From an uncultured Erysipelotrichaceae bacterium (GTDB taxonomy: Bacteria; Bacillota_I; Bacilli_A; Erysipelotrichales; Erysipelotrichaceae), in NCBI GenBank assembly GCA_944326825.1, contig CALVFL010000020.1, positions 1-32,258 on the forward strand: a DNA stretch of 32,258 nucleotides, written 5' to 3'. The position numbers were made by a program, and so were the translations under genes. The notes under the pieces are model-generated. The model was given only the letters and a program-made list of their open reading frames with translations, did no database searches and had not been told where the DNA came from. Of this stretch, positions 2,913 through 32,026 are shown piece after piece (position 1 is the first letter of the stretch; every line of letters begins with the position of its first letter).

Positions 2913-5719
<2,807 letters not shown>

Positions 5720-5721
5720 TT

Positions 5722-6210
5722 ATGGGACTTTTTGATAAGTTTAAGAAAAATGATCCATCTTATGATGACAAAGATATTGTTGCTGTTTGTGATGGTGAAT
5801 TAGTCAGTCATGAAAACATCAGTGATATGACTTTTGCCAAGGAACTCTTAGGCCAAACGATCGCCATCAAACCGAGCAGTTCAAAGATGGTATCGCCTGC
5901 CAATGGTACACTTGAGGTCTTGTTTCCTACCAAACATGCTTATGCAATACGCCGCAATGACGGCATGGGCATTCTCGTTCATATCGGTATCGATACGGTA
6001 TCGCTTAACGGCAAGGGGTTTAAGGCTTTGCACAAACAAGGCGATAAAGTCAATGCCGGCGATGTGATCATCGAGGCGGATCTGAAGGCTATTAAAGAAG
6101 CCGGATATGACCCGATCACAATGATCATCATCACGGAACCGATAAACGATCAAAAGATCTCTTATATCGATCCTGCAAGCGTAACTGAAGGTCAAAAAAT
6201 AAATAAATAA
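5722..6210 (+). CDS. PTS EIIA component, glucose/glucoside type
   Basis: A 162-residue cytoplasmic phosphocarrier of the EIIA-Glc superfamily that passes phosphate from HPr to the EIIB domain of the permease. The two active-site histidines are visible: H72 in FPTKHAYAI and H87 in GILVHIGIDTVSL, followed by GKGF, GDKV and the DPITMI(I/V)ITEP end motif. A ribosome site (GGAAAGGA) overlaps the end of the glucosidase gene, and the ATG lies two bases after its stop. It supplies the domain missing from the EIIBC permease. A hairpin terminator follows, so it is the last gene of the bgl operon. It could also serve other EIIBC proteins of the cell. Confidence 0.9.
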   Translation: MGLFDKFKKNDPSYDDKDIVAVCDGELVSHENISDMTFAKELLGQTIAIKPSSSKMVSPANGTLEVLFPTKHAYAIRRNDGMGILVHIGIDTVSLNGKGFKALHKQGDKVNAGDVIIEADLKAIKEAGYDPITMIIITEPINDQKISYIDPASVTEGQKINK

Positions 6211-7894: not shown

Positions 7895-8992
7895 CTAGTT
7901 TAAAAGATAGGCTAAAACAAGCAGTATCAAAAGAAAAACAACATTATAAAGGGTAAAGTTCTTAATGAACCTGCCCTTTTCTTTTGGACAAGCGCTGCCA
8001 TAGAATTTAAAAGAGATCAAAGAAGCTAAAGAGGCAATGATCGTGCCCAGACCGCCAATATTGACTCCTACCAAAAGAGCAGTGTAGTTTTCAGTAAATC
8101 CGCTAAGCAGGATCGCTGCTGGAACATTGGAAATGATCTGGCTTAACAAAGCACCGACCATGATTTCATGATTGCTGACCAGGCTGTTCAACACAAAACT
8201 TATTTCCGACATTCTTTTAATATTGCCGACAAAGATGAAAAAACAAACGAAAGTAGCGATAAGATAGTAATCTGCTTCTTTAAACAAACACCGATCGATC
8301 AATAGAGTTCCTAAGATAACAGCGATAAGCATAATATAGTAAGGAATTATCTTAAAGACTGTCAAAATGCACATACAAAGCAAAATCAAAGCTATTAAAA
8401 GGCGGTGATCACAGTTAATATTGACATTGCCGACAATCGTATTTCGGATCTTTTCTTTGGGTATGCTCAAAGTAAAAAGACAAAGCAAGACCAAAGATAT
8501 TAAAACATAAGGAGCGATCATTAAAAAGAATTCTTCCATCCTTAAGGAAGCTACTGAAGTCAGATAGATATTTTGAGGATTGCCGATAGGGGTAGCCATG
8601 CTGCCAAGGTTGGCGGCGATAGTTTCTAAAACGATCACTTTCACTAATTGTTTTTGATTGCTTGATCTTAAAAGATAGATCGTAAAGGGAACAAAAGTGA
8701 TAAGAGCCACATCGTTGGTAATTATCATGCTGGCAAAAAAACAGGTCATGATCAGGACCAAAGCCAATGATCGGAGGTCTGAAGCCTTAAAGATCAGATA
8801 GTTTCTCAGTTTGTCAAAGATACCGATTTTTTTGAAAGCTGCAACGATGATCATAAGACAAAAGAGCAAAGCCAGAGTCTTATAATCGGGATAATTGAAA
8901 TAAGCAGCATCAGGAAGAGCGATAAACATTGAAAACAATGCAGCTAAAACGGATATGCAGAAGACCGTTTCATTCTTGAATAGATTTTTCAT
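7895..8992 (-). CDS. SLC13/ArsB-type anion permease
   Basis: A membrane protein of about 365 residues with roughly ten hydrophobic helices. It belongs to the ion transporter superfamily (CitMHS/ArsB/NhaD/SLC13), shown by IITNDVALITFVPF and the hairpin motif NLGSMATPIGNPQN, and by the second half-repeat SNVPAAILL. Members move citrate, dicarboxylates, arsenite or sodium; the substrate is not readable here. Two starts are possible: ATG at 9019 or at 8992; neither has a ribosome site. I prefer 8992 (MKNLFKNETVF) because it sits just before the first helix, as usual in the family, and a weak promoter-like TATGTG overlaps the 9019 start. It converges on ald. Confidence 0.8.
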   Translation of the reverse strand: MKNLFKNETVFCISVLAALFSMFIALPDAAYFNYPDYKTLALLFCLMIIVAAFKKIGIFDKLRNYLIFKASDLRSLALVLIMTCFFASMIITNDVALITFVPFTIYLLRSSNQKQLVKVIVLETIAANLGSMATPIGNPQNIYLTSVASLRMEEFFLMIAPYVLISLVLLCLFTLSIPKEKIRNTIVGNVNINCDHRLLIALILLCMCILTVFKIIPYYIMLIAVILGTLLIDRCLFKEADYYLIATFVCFFIFVGNIKRMSEISFVLNSLVSNHEIMVGALLSQIISNVPAAILLSGFTENYTALLVGVNIGGLGTIIASLASLISFKFYGSACPKEKGRFIKNFTLYNVVFLLILLVLAYLLN

Positions 8993-9073
8993 GCGAGAAT
9001 AGTTTAGCACAAGGCACATAAAATAGCATCAGTTTCGGACAAAAGATATTGTTTGTTCAAAATCGTGTTATGA

Positions 9074-9370
9074 TTAAGAAAAAGAAAGAAGGCGGCTTTG
9101 CTTGCAAAAGACAGCGCTATGAATCATACTGTGGTCTTAAGCAGTATAAATCTTTTATTTGGAAACAGCACAAAACAGAAGACCAAGAATTCCTGGGGCG
9201 AAGAAAAGGCTTATAAAGATTATTACGCAGCTTCTGATAGCTGGTTTGACCGTCATGTCTATCAAGCTGTTGTCGATAAGAAATATCTTGATGAGGAAGC
9301 CTAAAAAACTTTGGAAAGCGAAGATGTCAAATTGGATTCATGAGATCCGATGGGAACTTTGGCATTATAA
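9074..9370 (+). pseudogene. pepC: C-terminal remnant of aminopeptidase C (bleomycin hydrolase family)
   Basis: The frame encodes the last quarter of a PepC-type cysteine aminopeptidase: MNHTVVL with the catalytic His, KNSWGEEKAYKDYYAASDSW with the catalytic Asn, WFDRHVYQAVV and KKYLDEE. The catalytic Cys half is absent; an in-frame TGA at 9071-9073 closes the frame upstream. There are two nonsense changes inside: TAA at 9302-9304 and TGA at 9341-9343, the second exactly where the family has Trp in its WDPMGTLA ending. After both, the frame still reads KTLESEDVKLDS and DPMGTLAL to a true stop at 9368-9370. It is therefore a decaying 5'-deleted gene, not a functional short protein. Confidence 0.8.
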
Positions 9371-9421
9371 ATAATATTAAAATGATGTATCATTAAAGAA
9401 GATAGACTAAGAGGTACGAAT

Positions 9422-10516
9422 ATGAAGTATAAGGATTTTAAAGGATTAAAATTATCAAGACTCGGTATGGGCAATATGCGCTTACCGGAAACTGACGGCA
9501 AAATCGATTATGATAAAGCAGAAGCGATCATCGATCTGGCGATGAGCGGGGGCATCAATTATTATGATACGGCTTATGTATATCATCATGGTACTTCAGA
9601 ATCATTTTTAGGCAAAGTTTTAAAGAAGTATCCCCGTGATTCTTATTATTTAGCTACCAAGTTCAATGTCTTGGCATCCAAGGATATTGAAAAGGTCTTT
9701 AATGAACAGTTAGAGCGTTTAGCTACCGATCATATCGACTTCTATCTTTTGCATTCAGTAACAGAAACTACTGCCAAAGAGTATATGAACGAAGACTACA
9801 TCAATTTCTTGAAAAAAGAAAAGGCCAAGGGAAGGATCAGACATATCGGTTTTTCTTCACATGCTAAACTGCCTACACTTAAAAAGATGCTGGAGTATTC
9901 AGACATCTTTGAATTCGTCCAGATCCAGCTCAATTATTTAGACTGGACTTTGCAGGATGCCAAAGGTCAATATGAAATGATCAAAGAATACGGTCTGCCA
10001 GTCTGGGTAATGGAACCGGTCAGAGGCGGACGTTTGGCAAAGCTAGATGACAGATACGAAAAGATCTTAAAAGATCATCTGCCGGAGGCTTCGATCTCTT
10101 CCTGGGCTTTCAGATATCTTTTCGGTCTGGATGATGTGGGCGTTATCTTAAGCGGCATGAGCAATCTTGAACAGTTAAGAGATAACCTTAAGACTTTTGA
10201 TGAAGTCAAGACTCTGGATGAAAAAGAAAATGAACTTCTGATGGAAGTCAAAAAGACGATCCTGGAAGAATTGACAGTACCATGTACGGCTTGCCATTAT
10301 TGTACGGATGGCTGTCCGATGCAGATTGATATTCCTAAATGGATGGATCTTTATAACCGGGTATCATTAAATAAAAACCGTGAACTGTATCTCAAAAGCA
10401 AACAAGAACCAAACGGTCCTGACACGTGTATCAACTGCGGTCAATGCAAGAGTCAATGTCCGCAAAATATCGACATTCCTGCAGTATTAAAGAAATATAA
10501 TGAAATGAAATTATAA
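9422..10516 (+). CDS. Aldo/keto reductase with C-terminal ferredoxin domain
   Basis: A 364-residue oxidoreductase. The first ~280 residues form an AKR barrel with the catalytic tetrad D49, Y54 (DTAYVYH), K80 (YLATKF) and H111 (DFYLLHS). The C-terminal ~80 residues carry two cysteine clusters of 4Fe-4S type: C288/C291/C294/C298 (CTACHYCTDGCP) and C336/C339/C342/C346 (CINCGQCKSQCP). This fusion is common in anaerobes and suggests electron exchange with ferredoxin; the natural substrate is unknown. A ribosome site AGAGG precedes the ATG. It is a single gene ending in a bidirectional terminator. Confidence 0.9.
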   Translation: MKYKDFKGLKLSRLGMGNMRLPETDGKIDYDKAEAIIDLAMSGGINYYDTAYVYHHGTSESFLGKVLKKYPRDSYYLATKFNVLASKDIEKVFNEQLERLATDHIDFYLLHSVTETTAKEYMNEDYINFLKKEKAKGRIRHIGFSSHAKLPTLKKMLEYSDIFEFVQIQLNYLDWTLQDAKGQYEMIKEYGLPVWVMEPVRGGRLAKLDDRYEKILKDHLPEASISSWAFRYLFGLDDVGVILSGMSNLEQLRDNLKTFDEVKTLDEKENELLMEVKKTILEELTVPCTACHYCTDGCPMQIDIPKWMDLYNRVSLNKNRELYLKSKQEPNGPDTCINCGQCKSQCPQNIDIPAVLKKYNEMKL

Positions 10517-22336: not shown

Positions 22337-22451
22337 TTGTGTTTGTATATTAATATATTTGTATTTTATAATGTCATGGACTTTAGCGTATTAAGTTTAT
22401 TCAAAACTTATCTTTTGAAATATTATGCATTTTTAATTACATCATTAATCT

Positions 22452-22489
22452 TTTAATTTAGTCATTTTATAAAAAATGACTAAATTAAA
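22452..22489. promoter_or_regulatory. Perfect palindromic operator upstream of fic
   Basis: Two 17-bp arms, TTTAATTTAGTCATTTT (22452-22468) and its exact complement (22473-22489), around a 4-base centre. A third copy of the half-site AAAATGACTAAATT lies at 22494-22507, starting exactly 21 bases (two DNA turns) after the second and sitting between the -35 and -10 boxes of the fic promoter. A repressor of this promoter is the natural reading. Confidence 0.75.
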
Positions 22490-22518
22490 TTGAAAAATGA
22501 CTAAATTGAATTTATAAT
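22490..22518 (+). promoter_or_regulatory. Promoter of the fic-hsd operon
   Basis: TTGAAA (22490-22495), 17-base spacer, TATAAT (22513-22518): nearly ideal for the housekeeping sigma factor. The predicted start near 22525 leaves a short leader with GGAGG at 22532-22536. Confidence 0.8.
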
Positions 22519-22541
22519 GATGTCAAAGGATGGAGGGTGCA

Positions 22542-23597
22542 ATGAGACAATTTGAATACAAAGAAAGTTGGAAGAAATTATTAACTCCGAATATAGTTTC
22601 GCTTTTAACTTCTATTCATGAATATAAAGGGGAACAAAATTTATTTATTGAGTCTAATTCTGACAAATTGACTGAATTATTAGAGATAGCTAAAATTCAG
22701 AGCACTGAAGCTTCAAACAAGATCGAAGGAATTATTACTACAAATGAACGTTTGAAGAAACTAGTCATGGATAAGACAATGCCTAGAAGTAGAAATGAGA
22801 AAGAAATAGCTGGCTATCGTGATGTGTTAAATACAATTCATGAAAGTTATGAATATATTCCCATTAATGCTAATTATTTTCTTCAATTACACGGGGATTT
22901 ATATAAATATAATAGTTCAGGGTTTGGAGGAAAATTTAAATCTTCTGATAATATAATTGCAGAAATTGATCCTTTTGGAAATAAGATAATTAGATTTCAG
23001 CCTGTTGAAGCTTGGGCTACCCCCGAAGCTATGGCTAATATGTGTTATGCATATAATGATGCAATTAATAATGATATTGATCCATTGATACTAATGCCAT
23101 TGTTTATACTAGATTTCTTATGCATTCATCCTTTTAATGATGGCAATGGAAGAATGAGTAGACTTCTTACTTTGCTTCTGTTATATAAGTCTGGATATAT
23201 CGTTGGTAAATACATAAGTATAGAAAAGCTTATTGAGCAATCTAAAGACACCTATTATGAAGCGTTACAAGCAAGTTCTTATGAATGGCATGATAATAAA
23301 AATAATTATGAACCGTTTGTAGAATATTATCTTGGCGTAATCATCGCAGCGTACAAAGAGTTTTCTAGTCGAGTACAGACACTGATTGATTCTGGAATGA
23401 GCAAACCAGAAAGAATTCGTGAAGTTATAAGAAAACATTTAGGAAAAATTACTAAAGGACAAATCATAGAGAAATGTCCTGATATAAGCGAAACTACAAT
23501 TCAAAGAACTCTAGCGGAGTTATTAAAAAATAAAGAAATTATTAAATTGAATGGTGGAAGATATACTTCATATGTATGGAATGAGGAGAAAGAATAA
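22542..23597 (+). CDS. Fic-family protein (AMPylase-type) with winged-helix domain
   Basis: A 351-residue three-part protein. Residues about 1-95 are a Fic_N-like helical region with the inhibitory motif S58-N-K-I-E62-G63 (SxxxEG), placing it in class II, where the inhibitory helix is in the same protein. The Fic core has the complete active motif HPFNDGNGRMSR (196-207), so transfer of AMP (or a related group) to a target is expected. The last ~70 residues form a winged helix (ITKGQIIEKCPDISETTIQRTL) suited to DNA binding. The ATG 22542 is chosen over 22530, since GGAGG lies 5 bases before it. Its stop shares one base with the hsdM start (TAATG). It may regulate this operon through the palindrome upstream; the target is unknown. 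Confidence 0.9.
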   Translation: MRQFEYKESWKKLLTPNIVSLLTSIHEYKGEQNLFIESNSDKLTELLEIAKIQSTEASNKIEGIITTNERLKKLVMDKTMPRSRNEKEIAGYRDVLNTIHESYEYIPINANYFLQLHGDLYKYNSSGFGGKFKSSDNIIAEIDPFGNKIIRFQPVEAWATPEAMANMCYAYNDAINNDIDPLILMPLFILDFLCIHPFNDGNGRMSRLLTLLLLYKSGYIVGKYISIEKLIEQSKDTYYEALQASSYEWHDNKNNYEPFVEYYLGVIIAAYKEFSSRVQTLIDSGMSKPERIREVIRKHLGKITKGQIIEKCPDISETTIQRTLAELLKNKEIIKLNGGRYTSYVWNEEKE

Positions 23598-25099
23598 TGA
23601 TTACAGGTGAATTGAAAAATAAAATTGATGCTTTGTGGGATGTGTTCGCAGCAGGTGGACTAACAAATCCTCTTGAAGTAATTGAACAAATTACTTATTT
23701 AATGTTTATTCATGATTTGGACGACACAGATAATAAAAATGCAAAAGAATGCGCGATGTTAGGTTTACCATTCAAAAGTATTTTTTCTGATCGAATTAAG
23801 ATAGGTGAAAGGACGATCGACGGACAACAATTAAAATGGTCAACTTTTAGAGATTTACCAGCAAACAAAATGTATGAAACAGTTCAAGAATGGGTCTTTC
23901 CATTTATTAAAGATCTACATTCCGACAAGAATAGTGCATATTCTAAATATATGGATGATGCAATATTTAAATTACCTACGCCATTAGTATTATCTAAAGT
24001 TGTTGACTCGCTAGATGATATTTATTCATTAATGGGCAAATCAACAGAAATTGATATTCGTGGCGATGTATATGAATATCTATTATCCAAGATTTCTACC
24101 GCAGGAAGAAACGGACAGTTTAGAACTCCTAGACACATTATTCGTATGATGGTTGAATTGATGAAACCAACACCAGAGGAAATTATATGCGATCCAGCAT
24201 GCGGCACAGGTGGTTTCTTAGTAGGAGCGAGCGATTATTTAAGAGAGACATATCGTAATGATATTTTAATGAATAAAGAAAATAGAGATCATTATATGAA
24301 TCGCATGTTCTATGGATTTGACATGGATAGAACTATGCTTCGCATTGGCGCCATGAATATGATGACTCATGGTGTAGAATCTCCATTCATTGAATATAGA
24401 GATAGTTTATCTGATCAAAATATTGATACAGATAAATATTCTTTAATTCTTGCCAATCCTCCTTTTAAGGGAACCTTGGATGCTGATTCGGTATCAGCTA
24501 ATTTATTGAAAGTAGCCAAAACAAAGAAAACGGAACTATTATTTTTGGCTTTATTTATAAGAATGTTAAAGATTGGCGGACGATGCGCTTGTATTGTTCC
24601 AGATGGCGTATTATTTGGATCAAGTAAAGCTCATAAGCAAATAAGAAAAGCGATTATTGAAGATAATAGATTAGAAGCGGTTATTTCAATGCCATCAGGT
24701 GTATTTAAACCTTATGCCGGTGTATCTACAGGAATATTAATATTTACTAAAACCGGACATGGTGGAACCGATAAAGTTTGGTTCTATGACATGAAAGCTG
24801 ATGGTTATTCATTAGATGATAAGAGATCGCCAGTTAAAGAAAATGATATTCCAGATATTATTGAAAGATTTAATCATTTAGATAAAGAGACAGAACGTAA
24901 GAGAACAGAACAAAGCTTCTTGGTAGATAAGAAAGAAATAGTAGATAATGATTATGATCTTTCGATTAATAAATATAAAGAAATAATTTATGAGAAAGTA
25001 GAATATCCACCTACAAGTGAAATACTTGCTGATATTGAAGAATTAAATAAAGAAATTGATAAGAATTTAGAAGAACTGAAAGCTCTTCTAAAAGGATAG
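23597..25099 (+). CDS. hsdM: Type I restriction-modification methyltransferase subunit HsdM
   Basis: N6-adenine DNA methyltransferase of a type I system; two copies join one HsdS to form the modification enzyme. The N-terminal helical HsdM_N region (about 1-130) is followed by the SAM-binding motif CDPACGTGGFLVGA (198-211) and the catalytic motif ILANPPF (284-290, NPPF). Length 500 is normal. Start ATG overlaps the fic stop, with GAGGAG inside the end of fic. An hsdS gene follows. The base composition is clearly more AT-rich than the genes left of 22 kb. Confidence 0.95.
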   Translation: MITGELKNKIDALWDVFAAGGLTNPLEVIEQITYLMFIHDLDDTDNKNAKECAMLGLPFKSIFSDRIKIGERTIDGQQLKWSTFRDLPANKMYETVQEWVFPFIKDLHSDKNSAYSKYMDDAIFKLPTPLVLSKVVDSLDDIYSLMGKSTEIDIRGDVYEYLLSKISTAGRNGQFRTPRHIIRMMVELMKPTPEEIICDPACGTGGFLVGASDYLRETYRNDILMNKENRDHYMNRMFYGFDMDRTMLRIGAMNMMTHGVESPFIEYRDSLSDQNIDTDKYSLILANPPFKGTLDADSVSANLLKVAKTKKTELLFLALFIRMLKIGGRCACIVPDGVLFGSSKAHKQIRKAIIEDNRLEAVISMPSGVFKPYAGVSTGILIFTKTGHGGTDKVWFYDMKADGYSLDDKRSPVKENDIPDIIERFNHLDKETERKRTEQSFLVDKKEIVDNDYDLSINKYKEIIYEKVEYPPTSEILADIEELNKEIDKNLEELKALLKG

Positions 25100-25117: not shown

Positions 25118-25153
25118 ATGGTAAATTCGGATTTGTGGGGCGATGGAATATAA
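25118..25153 (+). CDS. Possible 11-residue leader peptide before hsdS1
   Basis: The only strong ribosome site between hsdM and hsdS1, AAAGGAGG (25100-25107), is placed 10 bases before an ATG at 25118. That frame reads MVNSDLWGDGI and stops at 25151-25153, just past the out-of-frame hsdS1 ATG (25143), which itself has only a weak GTGGGG. Translation of the mini-ORF could couple to hsdS1 by re-initiation. Alternatively it is chance, a scar of recombination at this repeat. Confidence 0.35.
   Translation: MVNSDLWGDGI
25123..25152 (+). repeat. Direct repeat A, copy 1 (hsdS1 start)
   Basis: AAATTCGGATTTGT (25123-25136), then a few variable bases and ATGGAATATA (25143-25152). The same arrangement occurs at 27594-27623 before hsdS2. 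The identity reaches outside the coding sequence, so it is not explained by protein conservation. Confidence 0.8.
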
Positions 25154-26228
25154 GCGATTAGGTGATATATGTAATCCTAAGCAGTGGAAAACAATTTCTA
25201 CTAGTGATTTAACAGATACGGGGTATCCTGTTTATGGTGCAAATGGGATAATAGGTAATTATAAAGAGTATAATCATAAAAATGAAACAATACTTGTGAC
25301 TTGTAGAGGAGCGACGTGTGGAAGCGTAAATATTACACAGCCATATTCTTATGTGAATGGAAATGCAATGGCACTGGATAATTTGGATAAAAATATAGAT
25401 ATTAATTATTTGTATTTTTATCTAACATATAGGGGTTTTAATGATGTTATAAGTGGATCTGCTCAACCGCAAATTATTAGATCCGCAATAGAAAAAGTTT
25501 TAGTTCCTGTACACCCTATTGAATGGCAAAATAGATTATCTACGTTGCTTCAAAATATCAGCAAGATTAGGGAATTGTACCAAAAAGAAATTGAAAGACT
25601 TGATGAACTCATCAAAGCCCGATTTATCGAGATGTTTGGCAATCTTGAAAGCAACACAAAAAAATTTCCGGTCAAATTATTGAAAGATATATCTGAATAC
25701 TGGAATGGTTTAACATATAAACCTAATAATGTTGTAGAATCTGGAGACAAAGGAATTTTAGTGTTGCGATCCAGCAACATTCAAAGCGGCGAGTTATCTT
25801 TCAGTGATAATGTATATGTTGATTGTGCCATTAAAGACAAGCATTATGTTAAAGAAAACGATATTTTAATGTGTTCAAGGAACGGAAGTGCCAGATTAGT
25901 AGGTAAAGTAGCTTTAATTAAAGGGCTAGAAAAACCCACTTCTTTCGGGGCGTTTATGATGATTATAAGAAGCAAATACTATCCGTTTTTGAAAGTATAC
26001 TTTGAGATGCCAGAATTCAGAAAGCAGCTTGCAACAGGGACATCAACAATTAACCAAATCACTGCAGGAATGTTGAATAGTGTAAAGGTTCTAGCTCCTG
26101 ATATGACATTGGTCGAAGAGTATAAAAACTTTTGTAATCAGATAGATAAATCAAAATTAGCAGTACAGAAATCTTTAGAAAAAACACAACAACTGTTTGA
26201 TAGTTTAATGCAAGAATATTTTGGATAA
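25143..26228 (+). CDS. hsdS: Type I specificity subunit HsdS, first copy
   Basis: DNA-recognition subunit that decides the methylated and cut sequence. The 361-residue protein has the two-half design: target recognition domain 1 (about 1-145), central conserved helix with RLDELIKARFIEMFG (152-166), domain 2 (about 170-330), and distal conserved helix IDKSKLAVQKSLEKTQQLF, ending DSLMQEYFG. It is full-length and follows hsdM, so it is most likely the expressed copy. The start ATG lies in repeat A. Domain 1 begins MEYKRLGDICNPKQW and differs entirely from that of hsdS2. Repeats A, B (25616-25636) and C (26141-26157) are shared with hsdS2. Confidence 0.92.
   Translation: MEYKRLGDICNPKQWKTISTSDLTDTGYPVYGANGIIGNYKEYNHKNETILVTCRGATCGSVNITQPYSYVNGNAMALDNLDKNIDINYLYFYLTYRGFNDVISGSAQPQIIRSAIEKVLVPVHPIEWQNRLSTLLQNISKIRELYQKEIERLDELIKARFIEMFGNLESNTKKFPVKLLKDISEYWNGLTYKPNNVVESGDKGILVLRSSNIQSGELSFSDNVYVDCAIKDKHYVKENDILMCSRNGSARLVGKVALIKGLEKPTSFGAFMMIIRSKYYPFLKVYFEMPEFRKQLATGTSTINQITAGMLNSVKVLAPDMTLVEEYKNFCNQIDKSKLAVQKSLEKTQQLFDSLMQEYFG
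25616..25636 (+). repeat. Direct repeat B, copy 1 (hsdS1 centre)
   Basis: A 21-bp sequence beginning AGCCCGATTTATCGAG and ending ATGTT, identical to 28147-28167 in hsdS2 although flanking codons differ. It includes the small palindrome CGAT-TT-ATCG. It encodes ARFIEM. Confidence 0.85.
26141..26157 (+). repeat. Direct repeat C, copy 1 (hsdS1 distal)
   Basis: GATAGATAAATCAAAAT, identical to 28657-28673 in hsdS2; encodes (Q/L)IDKSK. Downstream sequences of the two genes are unrelated. Confidence 0.7.
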
Positions 26229-26270: not shown

Positions 26271-27260
26271 ATGAAAACAGAAATTATTACTGAAATTGAA
26301 CAATCGTTATTGAATTATTTGGATAATGCACAGATGGAAGTATTACATAGAGTTTTGAATCGTTGCTTTGAAGGTGTTGAAATCTGTTCAAAAGAGAATG
26401 TTGAAATATGTGAATTTACCAATGAAGAATTAATCAAAAAATTCATTTCAGCTAAAGAAATTGAAGGATGCAGTGGTAGAACTACAAAATATTATGAATC
26501 TACTTTGATAAAAATGAATTCTAAAATGGATAAAGGAATTACACATATGACAACAGATGATTTGAGAACATATTTAACAGATTACCAGAAAATTAATAAT
26601 TGTTCTAAAGCAAGCGTTGATAACATCAGGCGTAACTTAAGTAGTTTCTTTTCTTGGCTCGAGGAGGAAAATTATATTTTAAAAAGTCCAATGAAAAGAA
26701 TTCATAAGATTAAGACTGACAAAGTTATAAAAGATACGTACTCTGATGAAACATTAGAATTGTTAAGGGATAATTGTAATTGTTTAAGAGACTTAGCAAT
26801 TATCGACATATTAGCTTCCACTGGAATGAGAGTTGGAGAACTAGTTAAGTTAAATATTAATGATATTGACTTCGAAAATAGGGAATGTGTTGTGTTTGGT
26901 AAAGGGAATAAAGAAAGACCAGTTTATTTTGACGCAAGAACTAAGATTCATCTAAAGAATTATTTGAATTCTAGAAACGATTCAAACAAGGCTCTGTTTG
27001 TTTCGCTGGATAAACCTTATAACAGATTAAATATCAGTGGGATTGAAATAAGGCTAAGACAGCTAGGCAGAAGATTAGGGATTTCTAAAGTTCATCCACA
27101 CAAATTTAGGAGGACCGTAGCAACAAAAGCTATTGATAAAGGGATGCCAATAGAACAGGTTCAAAGTTTGTTAGGACATTCTCAAATTGATACGACCATG
27201 CATTATGCAATGGTAAATCAAAATAATGTTAAGGAATCTCATAGAAGATATATTTCATAG
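26271..27260 (+). CDS. XerC/D-like tyrosine recombinase of the hsd locus
   Basis: A 329-residue site-specific recombinase. The N-terminal SAM-like core-binding domain covers about 50-140 (STLIKMNSKMD, SVDNIRRNLSSFFSWLEEEN). The catalytic domain has every expected residue: R187 (TGMRVGEL), K211 (GKGNKER), H277 and R280 (HPHKFRRT), H303 (LLGHSQ) and the nucleophile Y312 (TMHYA). I chose the ATG at 26271, which has GGAGG eight bases ahead; earlier in-frame ATGs have no ribosome site. It sits between two hsdS genes on the same strand. Such recombinases shuffle hsdS in other bacteria, so the direct repeats A-C are its probable substrates. This is inference from arrangement. Confidence 0.92.
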   Translation: MKTEIITEIEQSLLNYLDNAQMEVLHRVLNRCFEGVEICSKENVEICEFTNEELIKKFISAKEIEGCSGRTTKYYESTLIKMNSKMDKGITHMTTDDLRTYLTDYQKINNCSKASVDNIRRNLSSFFSWLEEENYILKSPMKRIHKIKTDKVIKDTYSDETLELLRDNCNCLRDLAIIDILASTGMRVGELVKLNINDIDFENRECVVFGKGNKERPVYFDARTKIHLKNYLNSRNDSNKALFVSLDKPYNRLNISGIEIRLRQLGRRLGISKVHPHKFRRTVATKAIDKGMPIEQVQSLLGHSQIDTTMHYAMVNQNNVKESHRRYIS

Positions 27261-27270
27261 GAGAAAAGCT

Positions 27271-27588
27271 ATGTACGAAGTAAAAGAATCAGATTGGAAG
27301 ATTTTTAGAAAAAGAGTGCCTCAATGGCAAGAAGATTACATGAAAAAACTAAATAAAGAATACATCGAAATATTGAGCAGGGATGGATCTGCGGCTAAAA
27401 ATTTTTGGGATCTTGAAAACAGAGTTTTTAAAGATAAAAGAAGAGTTGGTGTTGTGATAGACATGAGAAGATCAAGAATGCTCATAAATTTATTGGATTT
27501 ATTAGAAGATCATGTAATAAGTCTAGAAGATTTAAATGAATTTAGTGAAGAATTAAGAAAAATGATAATTCAAATAACAGAAAGATAA
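27271..27588 (+). CDS. Unknown 105-residue protein between recombinase and hsdS2
   Basis: A small, charged, probably helical soluble protein (MYEVKESDWKIFRKRVPQWQ..., GVVIDMRRSRMLINLLDLLE, then VISLEDLNEFSEELR). I recall close relatives in Clostridia and Erysipelotrichia near type I restriction genes, sometimes mislabelled 'multidrug transporter'; it has no membrane helix. The ATG 27271 follows AGGAGA and lies 10 bases after the recombinase stop, so the two are co-translated. It may assist recombination or regulate HsdS supply; there is no direct evidence. Confidence 0.75.
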   Translation: MYEVKESDWKIFRKRVPQWQEDYMKKLNKEYIEILSRDGSAAKNFWDLENRVFKDKRRVGVVIDMRRSRMLINLLDLLEDHVISLEDLNEFSEELRKMIIQITER

Positions 27589-27593
27589 AATCC

Positions 27594-27623
27594 AAATTCG
27601 GATTTGTAGGTGTATGGAATATA
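27594..27623 (+). repeat. Direct repeat A, copy 2 (hsdS2 start)
   Basis: AAATTCGGATTTGT (27594-27607), variable bases, ATGGAATATA (27614-27623), matching 25123-25152. Unlike copy 1 it has no strong ribosome site upstream. Confidence 0.8.
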
Positions 27624-28693
27624 CAACAATAGGCGAATCATGTTCAGTAGTATCAGGAGGAACTCCTTCAAGGTCTAAAGATGAATATTGGCAAAATGGA
27701 ACCATTCCTTGGATAAAGATTGGAAATATTAAATCCAAATATGTAAATGAATACGATGAATTAATAACTGAACAAGGATTAAACAATTCTTCTGCAAAGT
27801 TATTGAAAAAAGGCACAATTCTTTACACTATATTTGCCACACTTGGAGAAGTTGGAATACTTGATACCGAGGCTTGTACAAATCAGGCAATTGCAGGAAT
27901 CACCATTAATGATTCAAGGATAACGACAGATTATTTATATTATTATTTAAAATCAAAAAAGGATTATGTTAACAATATTGGAAGAGGTGTTGCTCAAAAT
28001 AATATCAATTTAACAACTTTGAAAAAATTTGAAATTCCGTTAATCGACGTCAATAAACAATTAAACATTGTTAATACTCTTGAAAAAGCAGAGAGAATAA
28101 TAGTTTTAAAAAAGAAAGAAATTGAGTATTTAGATTTATTAATTAGAGCCCGATTTATCGAGATGTTATTAACAGGCAATTATGATGAAATACCTATTAA
28201 AGATTTAGTTGATTTAAACATCGTGTCAGCAAAAAAGACTTTTTCTTCTAACGATCTGATTCATTATATAGATATCTCATCTATTGATAATGAATCGAAT
28301 GTAATTACCTCTTATAAACATTATGCGATGAAAGATGCTCCTTCAAGAGCTCAACAATTAATTGTTTATGACGATATTCTTATATCTACTGTGAGACCTA
28401 ATTTAAGAAATATTGCACAAAATAAGGATAAAGATAGTAATTTGGTCGCCTCAAGTGGTTTTTGTATTCTGAGAGCTTCAAAATGCAATGCTCAATTTTT
28501 GTTATATTCTGTATTAACAGATGATTTCACCAATGCGATGGTTAGTAAAACTACTGGGGCTAGTTATCCAGCGATTAAAGACGACGATATTTTGAAGTAT
28601 AAAATTGCTTTACCACCAATAGAGCTCCAAAACGAATTTGCTGACTTTGTTAAACTGATAGATAAATCAAAATATGGCGGTATGTTCATATAA
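27614..28693 (+). CDS. hsdS: Type I specificity subunit HsdS, second copy, truncated tail
   Basis: A 359-residue HsdS with domain 1 (about 1-165, GGTPSRSKDEYWQNGTIPWI, typical TRD opening), the central region EYLDLLIRARFIEML (171-185), and domain 2 (about 190-340). After FVKLIDKSK the protein ends in an unrelated YGGMFI, missing the distal conserved helix of about 20 residues that hsdS1 keeps. The break coincides with repeat C. It has only a weak ribosome site (TAGG, 3-4 bases before ATG). I read it as a reserve cassette that supplies recognition domains by recombination; it could still be made at low level. No frameshifts are seen. Confidence 0.85.
   Translation: MEYTTIGESCSVVSGGTPSRSKDEYWQNGTIPWIKIGNIKSKYVNEYDELITEQGLNNSSAKLLKKGTILYTIFATLGEVGILDTEACTNQAIAGITINDSRITTDYLYYYLKSKKDYVNNIGRGVAQNNINLTTLKKFEIPLIDVNKQLNIVNTLEKAERIIVLKKKEIEYLDLLIRARFIEMLLTGNYDEIPIKDLVDLNIVSAKKTFSSNDLIHYIDISSIDNESNVITSYKHYAMKDAPSRAQQLIVYDDILISTVRPNLRNIAQNKDKDSNLVASSGFCILRASKCNAQFLLYSVLTDDFTNAMVSKTTGASYPAIKDDDILKYKIALPPIELQNEFADFVKLIDKSKYGGMFI
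28147..28167 (+). repeat. Direct repeat B, copy 2 (hsdS2 centre)
   Basis: Identical over 21 bp to 25616-25636, in the same orientation; sequences on either side diverge. Confidence 0.85.
28657..28673 (+). repeat. Direct repeat C, copy 2 (hsdS2 distal)
   Basis: GATAGATAAATCAAAAT as at 26141-26157. Homology to hsdS1 ends here and the hsdS2 frame closes six codons later. Confidence 0.7.
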
Positions 28694-28729
28694 ATGTATT
28701 AGAATATAGATATAAATAGTGAGGTGCCT

Positions 28730-31700
28730 ATGACAAATTTTGATTACTTGAAAAAAGAAAGTGAATTTGAAAGCTTTATCGATATAGCGATTATTGCGGA
28801 AAAAACATATAAAGTTGATAGTAACACTTGTATCATAAATTGTCGTAGGGCGATGGAGGCAGCCATTAAATGGATGTTTTCAGTTGATTGTGAATTAAAA
28901 GCACCTTATAAAGATAATCTTCATACTCTGATGAATTGTGATGCATTTAAGCAAATTATTGGCGATGATTTATGGAAACGTTTGGAATTTATTAGACGTT
29001 ATGGAAATGAAGCAGCTCACAATAGTGGTGAAAAAGCTAAAAATATTGCGGAAATATGTTTGAAGAATCTTTTCTATTTTATGGATTGGATAGCCTATTG
29101 TTATGGTGAAGAATATGAAGAAAGAGAATTTGACGTCTCTCTTTTAGAAAAAGAAGAAGTATCATTAATTCCAGAAGTAAATACAGATATTAATTTAGAA
29201 GCTTTGATCGAAGAGAATAAATCTTTAAAAGAAGAACTAAGCAAGCGCAGGGAACAACAGCAGAACACATATGTTGCAAAACCTTTGGATCTGTCTGAAT
29301 ATAAAACACGTAAGTTATATATTGATGCAATGCTTCTTGATGCTGGATGGGTAGAAGACAAAGACTGGGTTAACGAAGTGGAATTACCAGGTATGCCTAA
29401 TAAATCGGAAGTAGGATATGCTGATTATGTTTTGTATGATGATACGCAAAAACCTTTAGCTGTTATTGAAGCTAAACGAACATGTATAGATGTTTCTAAA
29501 GGTAGACAACAAGGGATCTTATATGCTGATATTTTAGAAAAACAATATGGGCGAAGACCGGTTATCTTCCTTACAAATGGTTTTGAAACAAGAATTATAG
29601 ATAATCAATATCCAGAAAGAAAAGTGTCTTCTATTTACTCTAAGAGAGATTTAGAGAAGTATTTCAATTTAATGAGCACTAGAGCTCATTTGAAATTTAT
29701 CGATATAAACAAAGACATTGCCGGTAGATATTATCAAGAAGAAGCTATTAGAGCTGTTTGCGAAGCTTTTGATCTACGGAATAAAAGGAAAGCATTACTA
29801 GTTATGGCGACCGGTTCTGGCAAGACAAGAACTGTCATTGGACTTGTAGATGTACTTTTAAATGAAGGCTGGATCAAGAATATATTATTCTTAGCTGACA
29901 GAAATTCACTTGTTACACAAGCAAAAAGAAGTTTTGTGAATATGCTTCCAAACTTATCGGCTACAAACTTAGTGGAAGATAAGTCGAATTATAATGCGCA
30001 TGTGGTCTTTTCAACATATCAGACAATGATTGGATGCATAGATACTGTTAAAGAAAATGATAAAAAGCTATTTACTTGCGGTCATTTTGATCTGATTATT
30101 TGTGATGAAGCGCATAGATCAATTTATAACAAGTACAAAGATATTTTTACTTATTTTGATGCTCATATTATTGGGCTTACAGCTACTCCTAAAGATGAAA
30201 TTGACAAAAATACATATGAGATATTTGAATTAGAAAATGGTGTTCCTACATATGGATATGAACTTTCTCAAGCGGTAAAGGATGGATATTTAGTCGATTT
30301 TCTTTCAGTAGAGACAGAATTAAAATTTATATCTGAAGGTATTGCGTGGGATCAGTTGTCTGATGAAGAAAAGGAAGAATATGAAGATACATTTGCAAAT
30401 GAAAATGGGTATGTACCAGAACGCATCGATTCTTCTGCATTAAATTCGTGGGTATTTAACGAGGATACAATACGAAAAGTATTAAAGACTTTATTTAATT
30501 ATGGTATTACGGTTGATTATGGTCAAAAAATCGGAAAGACGATTATCTTTGCAAAGAATCATAAACATGCAGAAACAATATATGAAGTATTTAATAAAGA
30601 GTATCCAGATTTGAATGGTTATGCAAAAGTTATTGATAATACAATCAATTATGTCCAAAGTGCGATAGATGAATTTTCGGATGCTAATAAACTTCCACAG
30701 ATTGCAATTTCAGTAGATATGCTTGATACGGGAATCGATGTTCCTGAAGTAGTTAATCTTGTTTTCTTTAAAAAAGTGATGAGTAAGGCAAAATTCTGGC
30801 AAATGATCGGAAGAGGAACTAGGTTGTGCCCAGGATTATTAGATGGAAACGATAAAAAAGAATTTTATATTTTTGACTTCTGTGGAAACTTTGAATTTTT
30901 TAGAATGAATAAGGGCAAAGCTTCTGCAAATGCCATAGCTGTACATGGAGCGATCTTTAATTTGAAGTTCCAAATCGCATATAAATTACAGGATCTGACT
31001 TATCAAACAGAGGAACTGAAAGAATGGCGAAAACAACTAGTTGAAGAAATGGTTAGTAAGGTGAAGGAATTGGATCGTAATAAGTTTGATGTTCGGCAAC
31101 ATATTAAATATGTAGATTTATATTCTAATCCTGACAATTATACTTCTTTGACATATGAAAATTGTCTGGATGTGAAAGATGAACTTGTACCATTAATTAA
31201 ACCAGATGATGATGAGATTAGTGCAGTTCGTTTTGATGCATTGATGCATGGGATTGAATTAGCGCATCTGGCACAGAAAAAATATCCTAAGTATAAAAAA
31301 GATCTTCTAAAGAAGGTTAAGGGCGTATCAAGTGTTGCGAATATTCCCGAAATACAAGTCCAGTCTGAACTTTTAGATAAAATTCTGCATACTAATTATT
31401 TAGAAGAATGTGATATTGATGATTTTGAAATAATCAGAAAGAATCTTCGAGATCTGATTAAATATATTCCTAAAAAAGGAAAAGTTTATATGACAGATTT
31501 TGAGGATGATATTTTGTCTGTTAATTGGAATGAATCCGATTTGGAAAATGATGATTTACAAAATTATAAAGATAAGCTTGAATATTATATTAAACAACAT
31601 CAAGAAGATAATCCAGTAATCATGAAATTAAAAGAAAATAAACCTTTAAATAAAAATGATGTGGATGAGTTAGAAAAAATCATATGGAATCAGCTTGGAA

Positions 31701-32026
31701 CTAAACAAGATTATTATTCTGAAGTTGGCGAAAAACCGCTTGGTGAATTTGTACGCGAAATAGTTGGTCTGGATATGAATGCTGCCAAAGAAGCTTTCTC
31801 TAAATATTTGGACGAAAGAGAAATGAACAGGAATCAGATCTATTTTGTAAATCAAATTGTTGAATATATTGTTCGTAATGGAGTGATGAAAGATTTGTCT
31901 GTTCTGCAAGAATCACCATTTATTGATAAAGGAAATGTTGTTGAACTGTTTGGTGATAACATTAAATTGTGGAGTGGTATTCAAAGCGTTATAAATAGCA
32001 TCAACAAGAACGCAATTTATTCTTAA
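28730..32026 (+). CDS. hsdR: Type I restriction subunit HsdR
   Basis: The motor and nuclease subunit that pulls DNA through the complex and cuts unmodified DNA. The 1098-residue protein has: an N-terminal DUF4145-like helical domain (about 1-125, RRAMEAAIKWMF, NEAAHN); a PD-(D/E)xK nuclease with D232 and E247-A-K249 (ADYVLYDD...LAVIEAKR); Walker A LVMATGSGKTRT (357-368); DEAH box IICDEAHRS (456-464); GLTATPKDE; and motif VI FWQMIGRGTRLCPG. A C-terminal helical region follows. The ATG 28730 lies behind GAGGTG; a GTG two codons earlier overlaps that site. It is the last gene of the operon, after hsdS2, and appears intact. Confidence 0.94.
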   Translation: MTNFDYLKKESEFESFIDIAIIAEKTYKVDSNTCIINCRRAMEAAIKWMFSVDCELKAPYKDNLHTLMNCDAFKQIIGDDLWKRLEFIRRYGNEAAHNSGEKAKNIAEICLKNLFYFMDWIAYCYGEEYEEREFDVSLLEKEEVSLIPEVNTDINLEALIEENKSLKEELSKRREQQQNTYVAKPLDLSEYKTRKLYIDAMLLDAGWVEDKDWVNEVELPGMPNKSEVGYADYVLYDDTQKPLAVIEAKRTCIDVSKGRQQGILYADILEKQYGRRPVIFLTNGFETRIIDNQYPERKVSSIYSKRDLEKYFNLMSTRAHLKFIDINKDIAGRYYQEEAIRAVCEAFDLRNKRKALLVMATGSGKTRTVIGLVDVLLNEGWIKNILFLADRNSLVTQAKRSFVNMLPNLSATNLVEDKSNYNAHVVFSTYQTMIGCIDTVKENDKKLFTCGHFDLIICDEAHRSIYNKYKDIFTYFDAHIIGLTATPKDEIDKNTYEIFELENGVPTYGYELSQAVKDGYLVDFLSVETELKFISEGIAWDQLSDEEKEEYEDTFANENGYVPERIDSSALNSWVFNEDTIRKVLKTLFNYGITVDYGQKIGKTIIFAKNHKHAETIYEVFNKEYPDLNGYAKVIDNTINYVQSAIDEFSDANKLPQIAISVDMLDTGIDVPEVVNLVFFKKVMSKAKFWQMIGRGTRLCPGLLDGNDKKEFYIFDFCGNFEFFRMNKGKASANAIAVHGAIFNLKFQIAYKLQDLTYQTEELKEWRKQLVEEMVSKVKELDRNKFDVRQHIKYVDLYSNPDNYTSLTYENCLDVKDELVPLIKPDDDEISAVRFDALMHGIELAHLAQKKYPKYKKDLLKKVKGVSSVANIPEIQVQSELLDKILHTNYLEECDIDDFEIIRKNLRDLIKYIPKKGKVYMTDFEDDILSVNWNESDLENDDLQNYKDKLEYYIKQHQEDNPVIMKLKENKPLNKNDVDELEKIIWNQLGTKQDYYSEVGEKPLGEFVREIVGLDMNAAKEAFSKYLDEREMNRNQIYFVNQIVEYIVRNGVMKDLSVLQESPFIDKGNVVELFGDNIKLWSGIQSVINSINKNAIYS

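Follow-up and report, generated by a model that had tools for sequence, protein, structure and literature searches.

Recombination that shuffles TRDs between hsdS genes is a known mechanism class, represented in the available text of the reports cited below by tvr, with direct midpoint repeats and circles, and by cod/ivr, with inversions. For the S. pneumoniae tvr locus (SpnIV, recombinase TvrR), the available text of Kwun et al. 2018 (PMC6265443) reports that shuffling via circle excision and reintegration has been shown, and describes direct repeats of ~18 bp at the hsdS midpoint together with a second repeat type that shares a core of ~11 bp. In S. suis SsuCC20p, the xerD recombinase is needed for TRD shuffling, and this system is a reported exception to the rule that the hsdM-adjacent hsdS is the expressed one (PMC10790761, available text). 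In the S. pneumoniae cod/ivr locus (SpnIII; PsrA/CreX), the bases flanking the repeat matter (PMC4948785, PMC7096588 and PMC6620402, available text).

We analysed a locus from an uncultured Erysipelotrichaceae bacterium. The window, by which we mean the whole stretch of 32,258 nucleotides that was analysed, carries hsdM, hsdS1, a recombinase gene, a 105-aa ORF, hsdS2 and hsdR in this order, with both hsdS genes in the same orientation. The features are as follows, the limits of spacers and arms being putative:

23597-25099, + strand: hsdM (Pfam N6_Mtase and HsdM_N)
25123-25140, + strand: 5' site 1, non-coding, before the hsdS1 ATG at 25143; AAA-TTCGGA-TTTGTGGGG
25143-26228, + strand: hsdS1 (Pfam Methylase_S)
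25614-25636, + strand: midpoint site 1; AAA 25614-25616, spacer GCCCGA 25617-25622, right arm TTTATCGAG 25623-25631, then ATGTT
26142-26156, - strand: candidate 3' site 1, inverted, in DKSK codons; spacer TTTTGA (- strand)
26271-27260, + strand: tyrosine recombinase P0003, XerA-like (Pfam Phage_integrase, NCBIfam XerA, XerA alignment)
27271-27588: 105-aa ORF in the interval between recombinase and hsdS2
27594-27611, + strand: 5' site 2, before the hsdS2 ATG at 27614; AAA-TTCGGA-TTTGTAGGT
27614-28693, + strand: hsdS2 (Pfam Methylase_S)
28145-28167, + strand: midpoint site 2; AGA 28145-28147, spacer GCCCGA 28148-28153, right arm TTTATCGAG 28154-28162, then ATGTT
28658-28672, - strand: candidate 3' site 2, inverted, in DKSK codons; same TTTTGA spacer
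28724-32026, + strand: hsdR (Pfam ResIII, HSDR_N and EcoEI_R_C)

The layout resembles that of tvr as described in the available text of PMC6265443: the recombinase gene lies among direct hsdS genes inside the hsdM-hsdR interval, and a midpoint direct repeat is accompanied by a second repeat type that shares its core. However, the second type in the window lies 5' of the gene and is not a 70-bp tail repeat, and the second and third site types, one preceding the start codon and the other inverted at the 3' end, have differing spacers. The phd-doc pair (tvrAT) is absent beside the window recombinase, and a Fic gene is found upstream of hsdM instead. The comparison with tvr covers locus layout and repeats; circles, which were shown in tvr, would be predicted for the window. 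With the phd-doc pair absent, we do not call the locus a tvr member. With SsuCC20p (PMC10790761, available text) the window shares sites built as AAA-n6-TTT, and the sites of one S. suis locus in our set (L098) are the SsuCC20p 14-bp sites. SsuCC20p differs from the window in that its 14-bp sites are inverted, carry one spacer, lie at both C-TRD ends and fall in INDNL linker codons. Inverted repeats with the same core, the SsuCC20p/PsrA type, were not found: the window copies are direct, and the inverted 3' site has another spacer. The short hsdS repeat and linked tyrosine recombinase also recall cod/ivr, which however has inverted hsdS copies, inversions and the core ATTATGGGAA, while the window hsdS genes are direct (PMC4948785, PMC7096588 and PMC6620402, available text).

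P0003 scores 243.6 bits against XerA_Arch, above the NCBIfam cut-off of 220, and falls below the cut-offs of the XerC and XerD models. It can be aligned with the solved XerA and XerD structures, and by eye the XerA alignment contains R-K-H-x-x-R-H-Y residues, which we take to be catalytic. With a Phage_integrase domain, these residues and a score above the XerA cut-off, P0003 classes as a Xer-type tyrosine recombinase; its homologues extend over several bacterial phyla and one archaeal MAG. The 105-aa ORF has no match in Pfam or NCBIfam, its homologues are confined to a few loci (L034, L036, L044 and L047), and it is a possible regulator of P0003.

An earlier note on this DNA had drawn attention to an exact repeat of 25616-25636 at 28147-28167 amid differing codons, and we confirm this in the window. 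The identical 21 bp form the end of a 53-bp direct repeat (77% identity) and sit at the junction of the two TRDs in each of the two directly repeated hsdS genes. CGATTTATCG occurs at just these two places, where 0.11 occurrences are expected from dinucleotide shuffles. The block reads in frame as GCC CGA TTT ATC GAG ATG TT, encoding ARFIEM followed by F or L. Given A-R-F-I-E in both genes, window codon usage (CGA 5.7% of Arg, GAG 17.6% of Glu) yields a probability of 0.013, or ~1 in 75, that the same codons are used, and of 0.001 that both genes use these particular codons; in the upstream flank, 4 of 8 shared residues have the same codon. Within the window alone, the identity is suggestive of a DNA-level site. 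The decisive evidence for such a site is the comparison across loci.

Scanning for the recombinase gave 80 loci in genomes and 5 on viral contigs, usually ordered hsdM, hsdS, recombinase, hsdS (or a C-terminal hsdS half), hsdR, with mainly direct hsdS copies. Of 86 loci, 62 matched a protein regex (123 sites, a few of them chance matches on other frames) and 60 a DNA regex (119 sites); adding seven loci and filtering left 66 loci with 131 sites, and 57 of these loci hold at least two copies. The site-identity set omits duplicate contexts and sites <75 bases from one locus end or <110 from the other, and several positions of the site regex allow little variation. The loci are related, so that counts are not independent, which weighs against our reading.

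In all 57 loci with at least two copies, the hexamer at positions 0 to 5 is single: dipeptide-preserving shuffles give a mean of 29.1 such loci and a maximum of 37 (2000 shuffles), and 4.9 are predicted from the codon bias of each locus. Twelve kinds of hexamer are found over the 66 loci, and a thirteenth, equal in both copies, in a locus found later (G570). The 73 within-locus pairs all agree at positions 0 to 8 (consensus TCnCRRTTT). Pairs from different loci have identities of 0.53, 0.40, 0.63 and 0.66 at positions 0, 2, 4 and 5, several other block positions being fixed by the regex. Within loci, identity falls at positions 9, 11 and 14 (0.93, 0.88 and 0.93). Codons for the same residue are identical within loci in 352/361 cases in the block, 140/224 upstream and 150/246 downstream. 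By this comparison the block is constrained as DNA beyond protein conservation, as the earlier note had proposed, and the GCCCGA-type hexamer seems to be an address, equal within a locus and differing between loci.

Two of the note's more specific expectations fared differently. Third codon positions are not invariant among relatives: between-locus pairs have an identical codon 0 in 42% and an identical codon 1 in 58%. Frequent synonymous changes had been named as evidence against a DNA site, and taken literally they are that; yet this yardstick would mislead, because the changes are frequent between loci but common to all copies of each locus, and such sharing is a stronger sign of a recombination site than invariance. 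The palindrome CGAT-TT-ATCG, proposed as recombinase arms, was rejected, as it is not kept among loci: in a 14-mer table of 60 loci, CGATTTATCG appears in just 8, and relatives carry CGGTTTGTGG, CAATTTATCG or others. AAA-[GCCCGA]-TTT is the better-supported core.

Nine more copies (L046, L057, L061, L069, L070, L073, L080, L087 and L094) carry their own locus's spacer, although the search that yielded them itself favoured such copies. A peptide pattern open to any codon spelling gave 22 matches in 15 of 395 genomes, 15 in hsdS and 7 without an hsdS hit; 14 of the 15 adjoin the recombinase and one lies on a 4.7-kb contig, and no clear recombinase-free hsdS with the same peptide was seen among the 22. 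A second draw, overlapping the first, covered 245 genomes and returned 21 matches in 15 of them, with three new places, two of them without an hsdS hit. The third, G570, looked like a recombinase-free case but was discarded as one: a 54% homologue lies beyond hsdR, and its inverted C-half has the identical site. Two viral contigs count against the linkage: in the 9.96 kb of L194 examined there is one site and no recombinase was found, and L191 has two sites and none found in the stretch examined; L192 and L193 are incomplete stretches. A contig classed as viral (L118, IMG/VR, 114 kb) carries a complete hsdM-hsdS-recombinase locus of the same class. In L127 (919-1901, G033) the recombinase frame is split into two overlapping pieces and both midpoint sites are still identical; this is possibly a locked locus.

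The tie to the recombinase and to exchange junctions at the block, also put forward earlier, is borne out by linkage, half-genes and TRD mosaics that break there. An in-frame stop lies within 25 codons upstream in 31 of 131 copies, many directly behind the recombinase gene; in many loci, among them L041 (9004), L048 (9005) and L063 (8992), a C-terminal hsdS half starts precisely with the block, a few bases past the recombinase stop. Protein conservation cannot set the left edge in these half-genes because no reading frame lies upstream. Among mosaics with at least 90% identity, ten pairs share the N-side, are identical through +10 and then lose identity, and seven share the C-side, identical from +1 and in 6/7 from 0. 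Two right-shared pairs (L107/L108 and L040/L046) differ inside or just past the right arm, which counts against exchange at this point. The C-TRD at 8992-9482 behind the recombinase of Segatella L067, where it is silent, matches at 98.8%, starting at the block, the C-half at 5277-5767 of a Prevotellaceae MAG (L071), where it sits in the hsdS upstream of the recombinase; L041 and L040 repeat this pattern at 97.7%. Compared with its nearest relative, Faecalicoccus acidiformans (L034), the window has 89-90% identity in two stretches, one reaching 25154, a little beyond the 5' site, and the other running from 26138, where the 3' site lies, to 27643; in between the TRDs are replaced, save ~79 bp around the midpoint site. 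No switching inside one species was seen for the window's site class, which we count against our reading, and TRD exchange in this class would rest on the cross-species mosaics. In L080 (6108) and L087 (1417), N-terminal hsdS halves enter the site and end a few codons later, making them possible silent N-TRD cassettes, the complement to the silent C-halves. In L068, L072, L074, L078, L096 and L108, the right edge reads GAGATG in one hsdS copy and GAGCTC in the other, changing Met to Leu.

Related sites flank the TRDs on their outer sides. The 5' core AAA-TTCGGA-TTTGT is common to both window genes. An equal 5' spacer was found in 14 of 33 loci with two N-halves, against a control mean of 1.08 and a maximum of 4 in 300; that such pairs are limited to 14 of the 33 eligible loci weighs against the model, and in 14/14 the 5' spacer is unlike that of the midpoint. 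At the other end, the tails of the window genes diverge directly after the 3' site. Its hexamer is equal within 37/38 loci and 0.34 between loci, and AAG replaces AAA in 0/96; these figures come from a replacement test, an earlier 5-residue motif having given too few pairs. The 3' site, which appears partly explained by protein conservation, remains a candidate and the weakest of the three types. By eye, midpoint and 3' spacers show no consistent co-variation. Since the 5' and 3' sites carry other hexamers, each TRD would lie between two sites with different addresses.

In a quick tree of 107 homologues, which omits duplicates, proteins <290 aa, L137-L158 and loci with numbers below L034, one change separates 65 recombinases with the window's site class from 28 with TAAA-n6-TTTA sites (support 95), where shuffles average 24 changes; the 14 with neither class stayed outside this group test. 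The sister class also has one spacer per locus, except in L132 and for stray matches in L088 and L169. S. suis L098, the SsuCC20p locus, falls in this sister clade, its recombinase 63% identical to P0003. Lactococcus plasmids that carry the same recombinase protein as one another have the sister class of site: between pJM2A and pJM1A a 663-bp C-TRD is inverted, with ends exactly at sites, and in pUCCL627F two C-TRDs, 100% identical, have traded places. As judged from these plasmids, recombination at AAA-n6-TTT sites of the P0003 family does exchange TRD cassettes in the sister class. Neither regex matched in L. salivarius L195-L198, in which AAA-TACTAA-TTT is present, and neither site class was found in Fusobacterium L202.

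Could the block be conserved for its protein alone, ARFIEMF being a structural motif of the HsdS linker and the DNA identity a coincidence of codon bias? It is coding in both window genes, the residues are shared, and 0.013 is the probability from the window only. This explanation is nevertheless largely refuted by identity within loci and variation between them, and we consider it highly improbable: codon bias accounts for few of the 57 single-spacer loci, some copies start at the block with no frame upstream, the rare codons CGA and GAG are used, and related 5' sites lie outside genes. Homologous recombination or gene conversion between hsdS copies, homogenising the block without a recombinase, would likewise predict within-locus identity and TRD mosaics at conserved hsdS regions. 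It is a poor fit, and improbable, given that identity covers only ~15-25 bp before dropping sharply to divergent flanks, that homology to the left is lacking in the half-genes behind the recombinase, and that the sites are linked to one recombinase family with site class matching recombinase clade; rearrangement in the sister class, moreover, needs the recombinase (PMC10790761, available text).

A closer contender keeps recombinase and site but places the spacer at ATTTRT (+5 to +10). The hexamer GCCCGA is flanked by AAA and TTTRT, as expected for a Xer-like core spacer, and it is the spacer around which the arms, CTCATCAAA and TTTRTCGAG, pair best in genic copies (5.30 of 9), with the +5 spacer second (4.94). 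Where a stop lies upstream (31 copies), however, the +5 spacer is best (4.77 vs 3.29), which counts against GCCCGA, as does a poorly conserved left arm, and ATTTRT would account for the retained CGAGATGTT. On the other side, +9 and +11 vary within loci while 0 to +5 never do, AAA-n6-TTT is common to the 5' sites and the sister class, and two copies beside the recombinase (L046 8992 and L069 1116) keep just 0 to +8. We regard the shifted spacer as unlikely, though a serious option.

The best explanation as a whole, to which we assign a probability of about 0.85, is that the block is the midpoint site of the neighbouring recombinase, used in site-specific TRD shuffling by a mechanism like that of pneumococcal tvr. 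Sites, spacers, linkage and mosaics are seen in the sequences; from them we infer binding, cleavage, where exactly arms and spacer end, and active switching in this organism. The recombinase would bind arms around the 6-bp spacer GCCCGA and exchange strands in or beside it, with cuts at the spacer borders, and partners would be limited to sites with the same spacer. Spacer identity between partners is required at Xer, Cre and Flp sites: XerCD/dif and heterospecific lox/FRT have two arms and a 6-8 bp spacer that must be identical between partners, dif serving to resolve chromosome dimers and heterospecific lox/FRT pairs being engineered. Exchange between the two midpoint sites, as direct repeats, would excise a circle with C-TRD1, the recombinase and N-TRD2 and leave an N-TRD1-C-TRD2 fusion, and reintegration could restore or rearrange the original order; 5' x 5' exchange would also excise a circle. 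Because the 5' (TTCGGA) and 3' (TTTTGA) spacers differ from that of the midpoint, excision at one site type and reinsertion at the other could trade TRDs (N-TRDs) between genes unscrambled. Such trading would change the methylated and restricted sequence. The expressed gene would be hsdS1, beside hsdM, by analogy with tvr (PMC6265443, available text). That this amounts to natural cassette exchange, with one recombinase acting on three site types with shared arms, spacers that keep N- and C-modules from mis-joining, and a spacer that drifts between lineages, is locked per locus and constrains HsdS linker codons (perhaps residues), is an idea for which we see an even chance.

In the open-licence literature searched, we did not find this site class, the one-spacer-per-locus rule or distinct 5', midpoint and 3' spacers, and six site strings of 11-14 bases matched ten open-licence papers, all with unrelated titles. 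A search for AAA-n6-TTT with one spacer per locus could reveal phase-variable type I systems that repeat-based surveys miss because their repeats are too short. The rule would also make a testable mechanistic claim, that the hexamer decides which TRD modules join, and provide a case in which a DNA recombination site shapes coding sequence. The results suggest a family of small recombinases whose sites exclude one another, and the address code could permit natural cassette exchange.

A Fic/Doc gene (22530-23597) adjoins hsdM in the window, as in several relatives, and 5' of it, at 22439-22523, lie an AT-rich 30-nt inverted repeat (83%) and a 21-nt tandem repeat. In L054 (6861-7874) and L202 (7192-7953), a Fic/Doc gene lies between hsdS and the recombinase, like the Doc-like pneumococcal tvrT.
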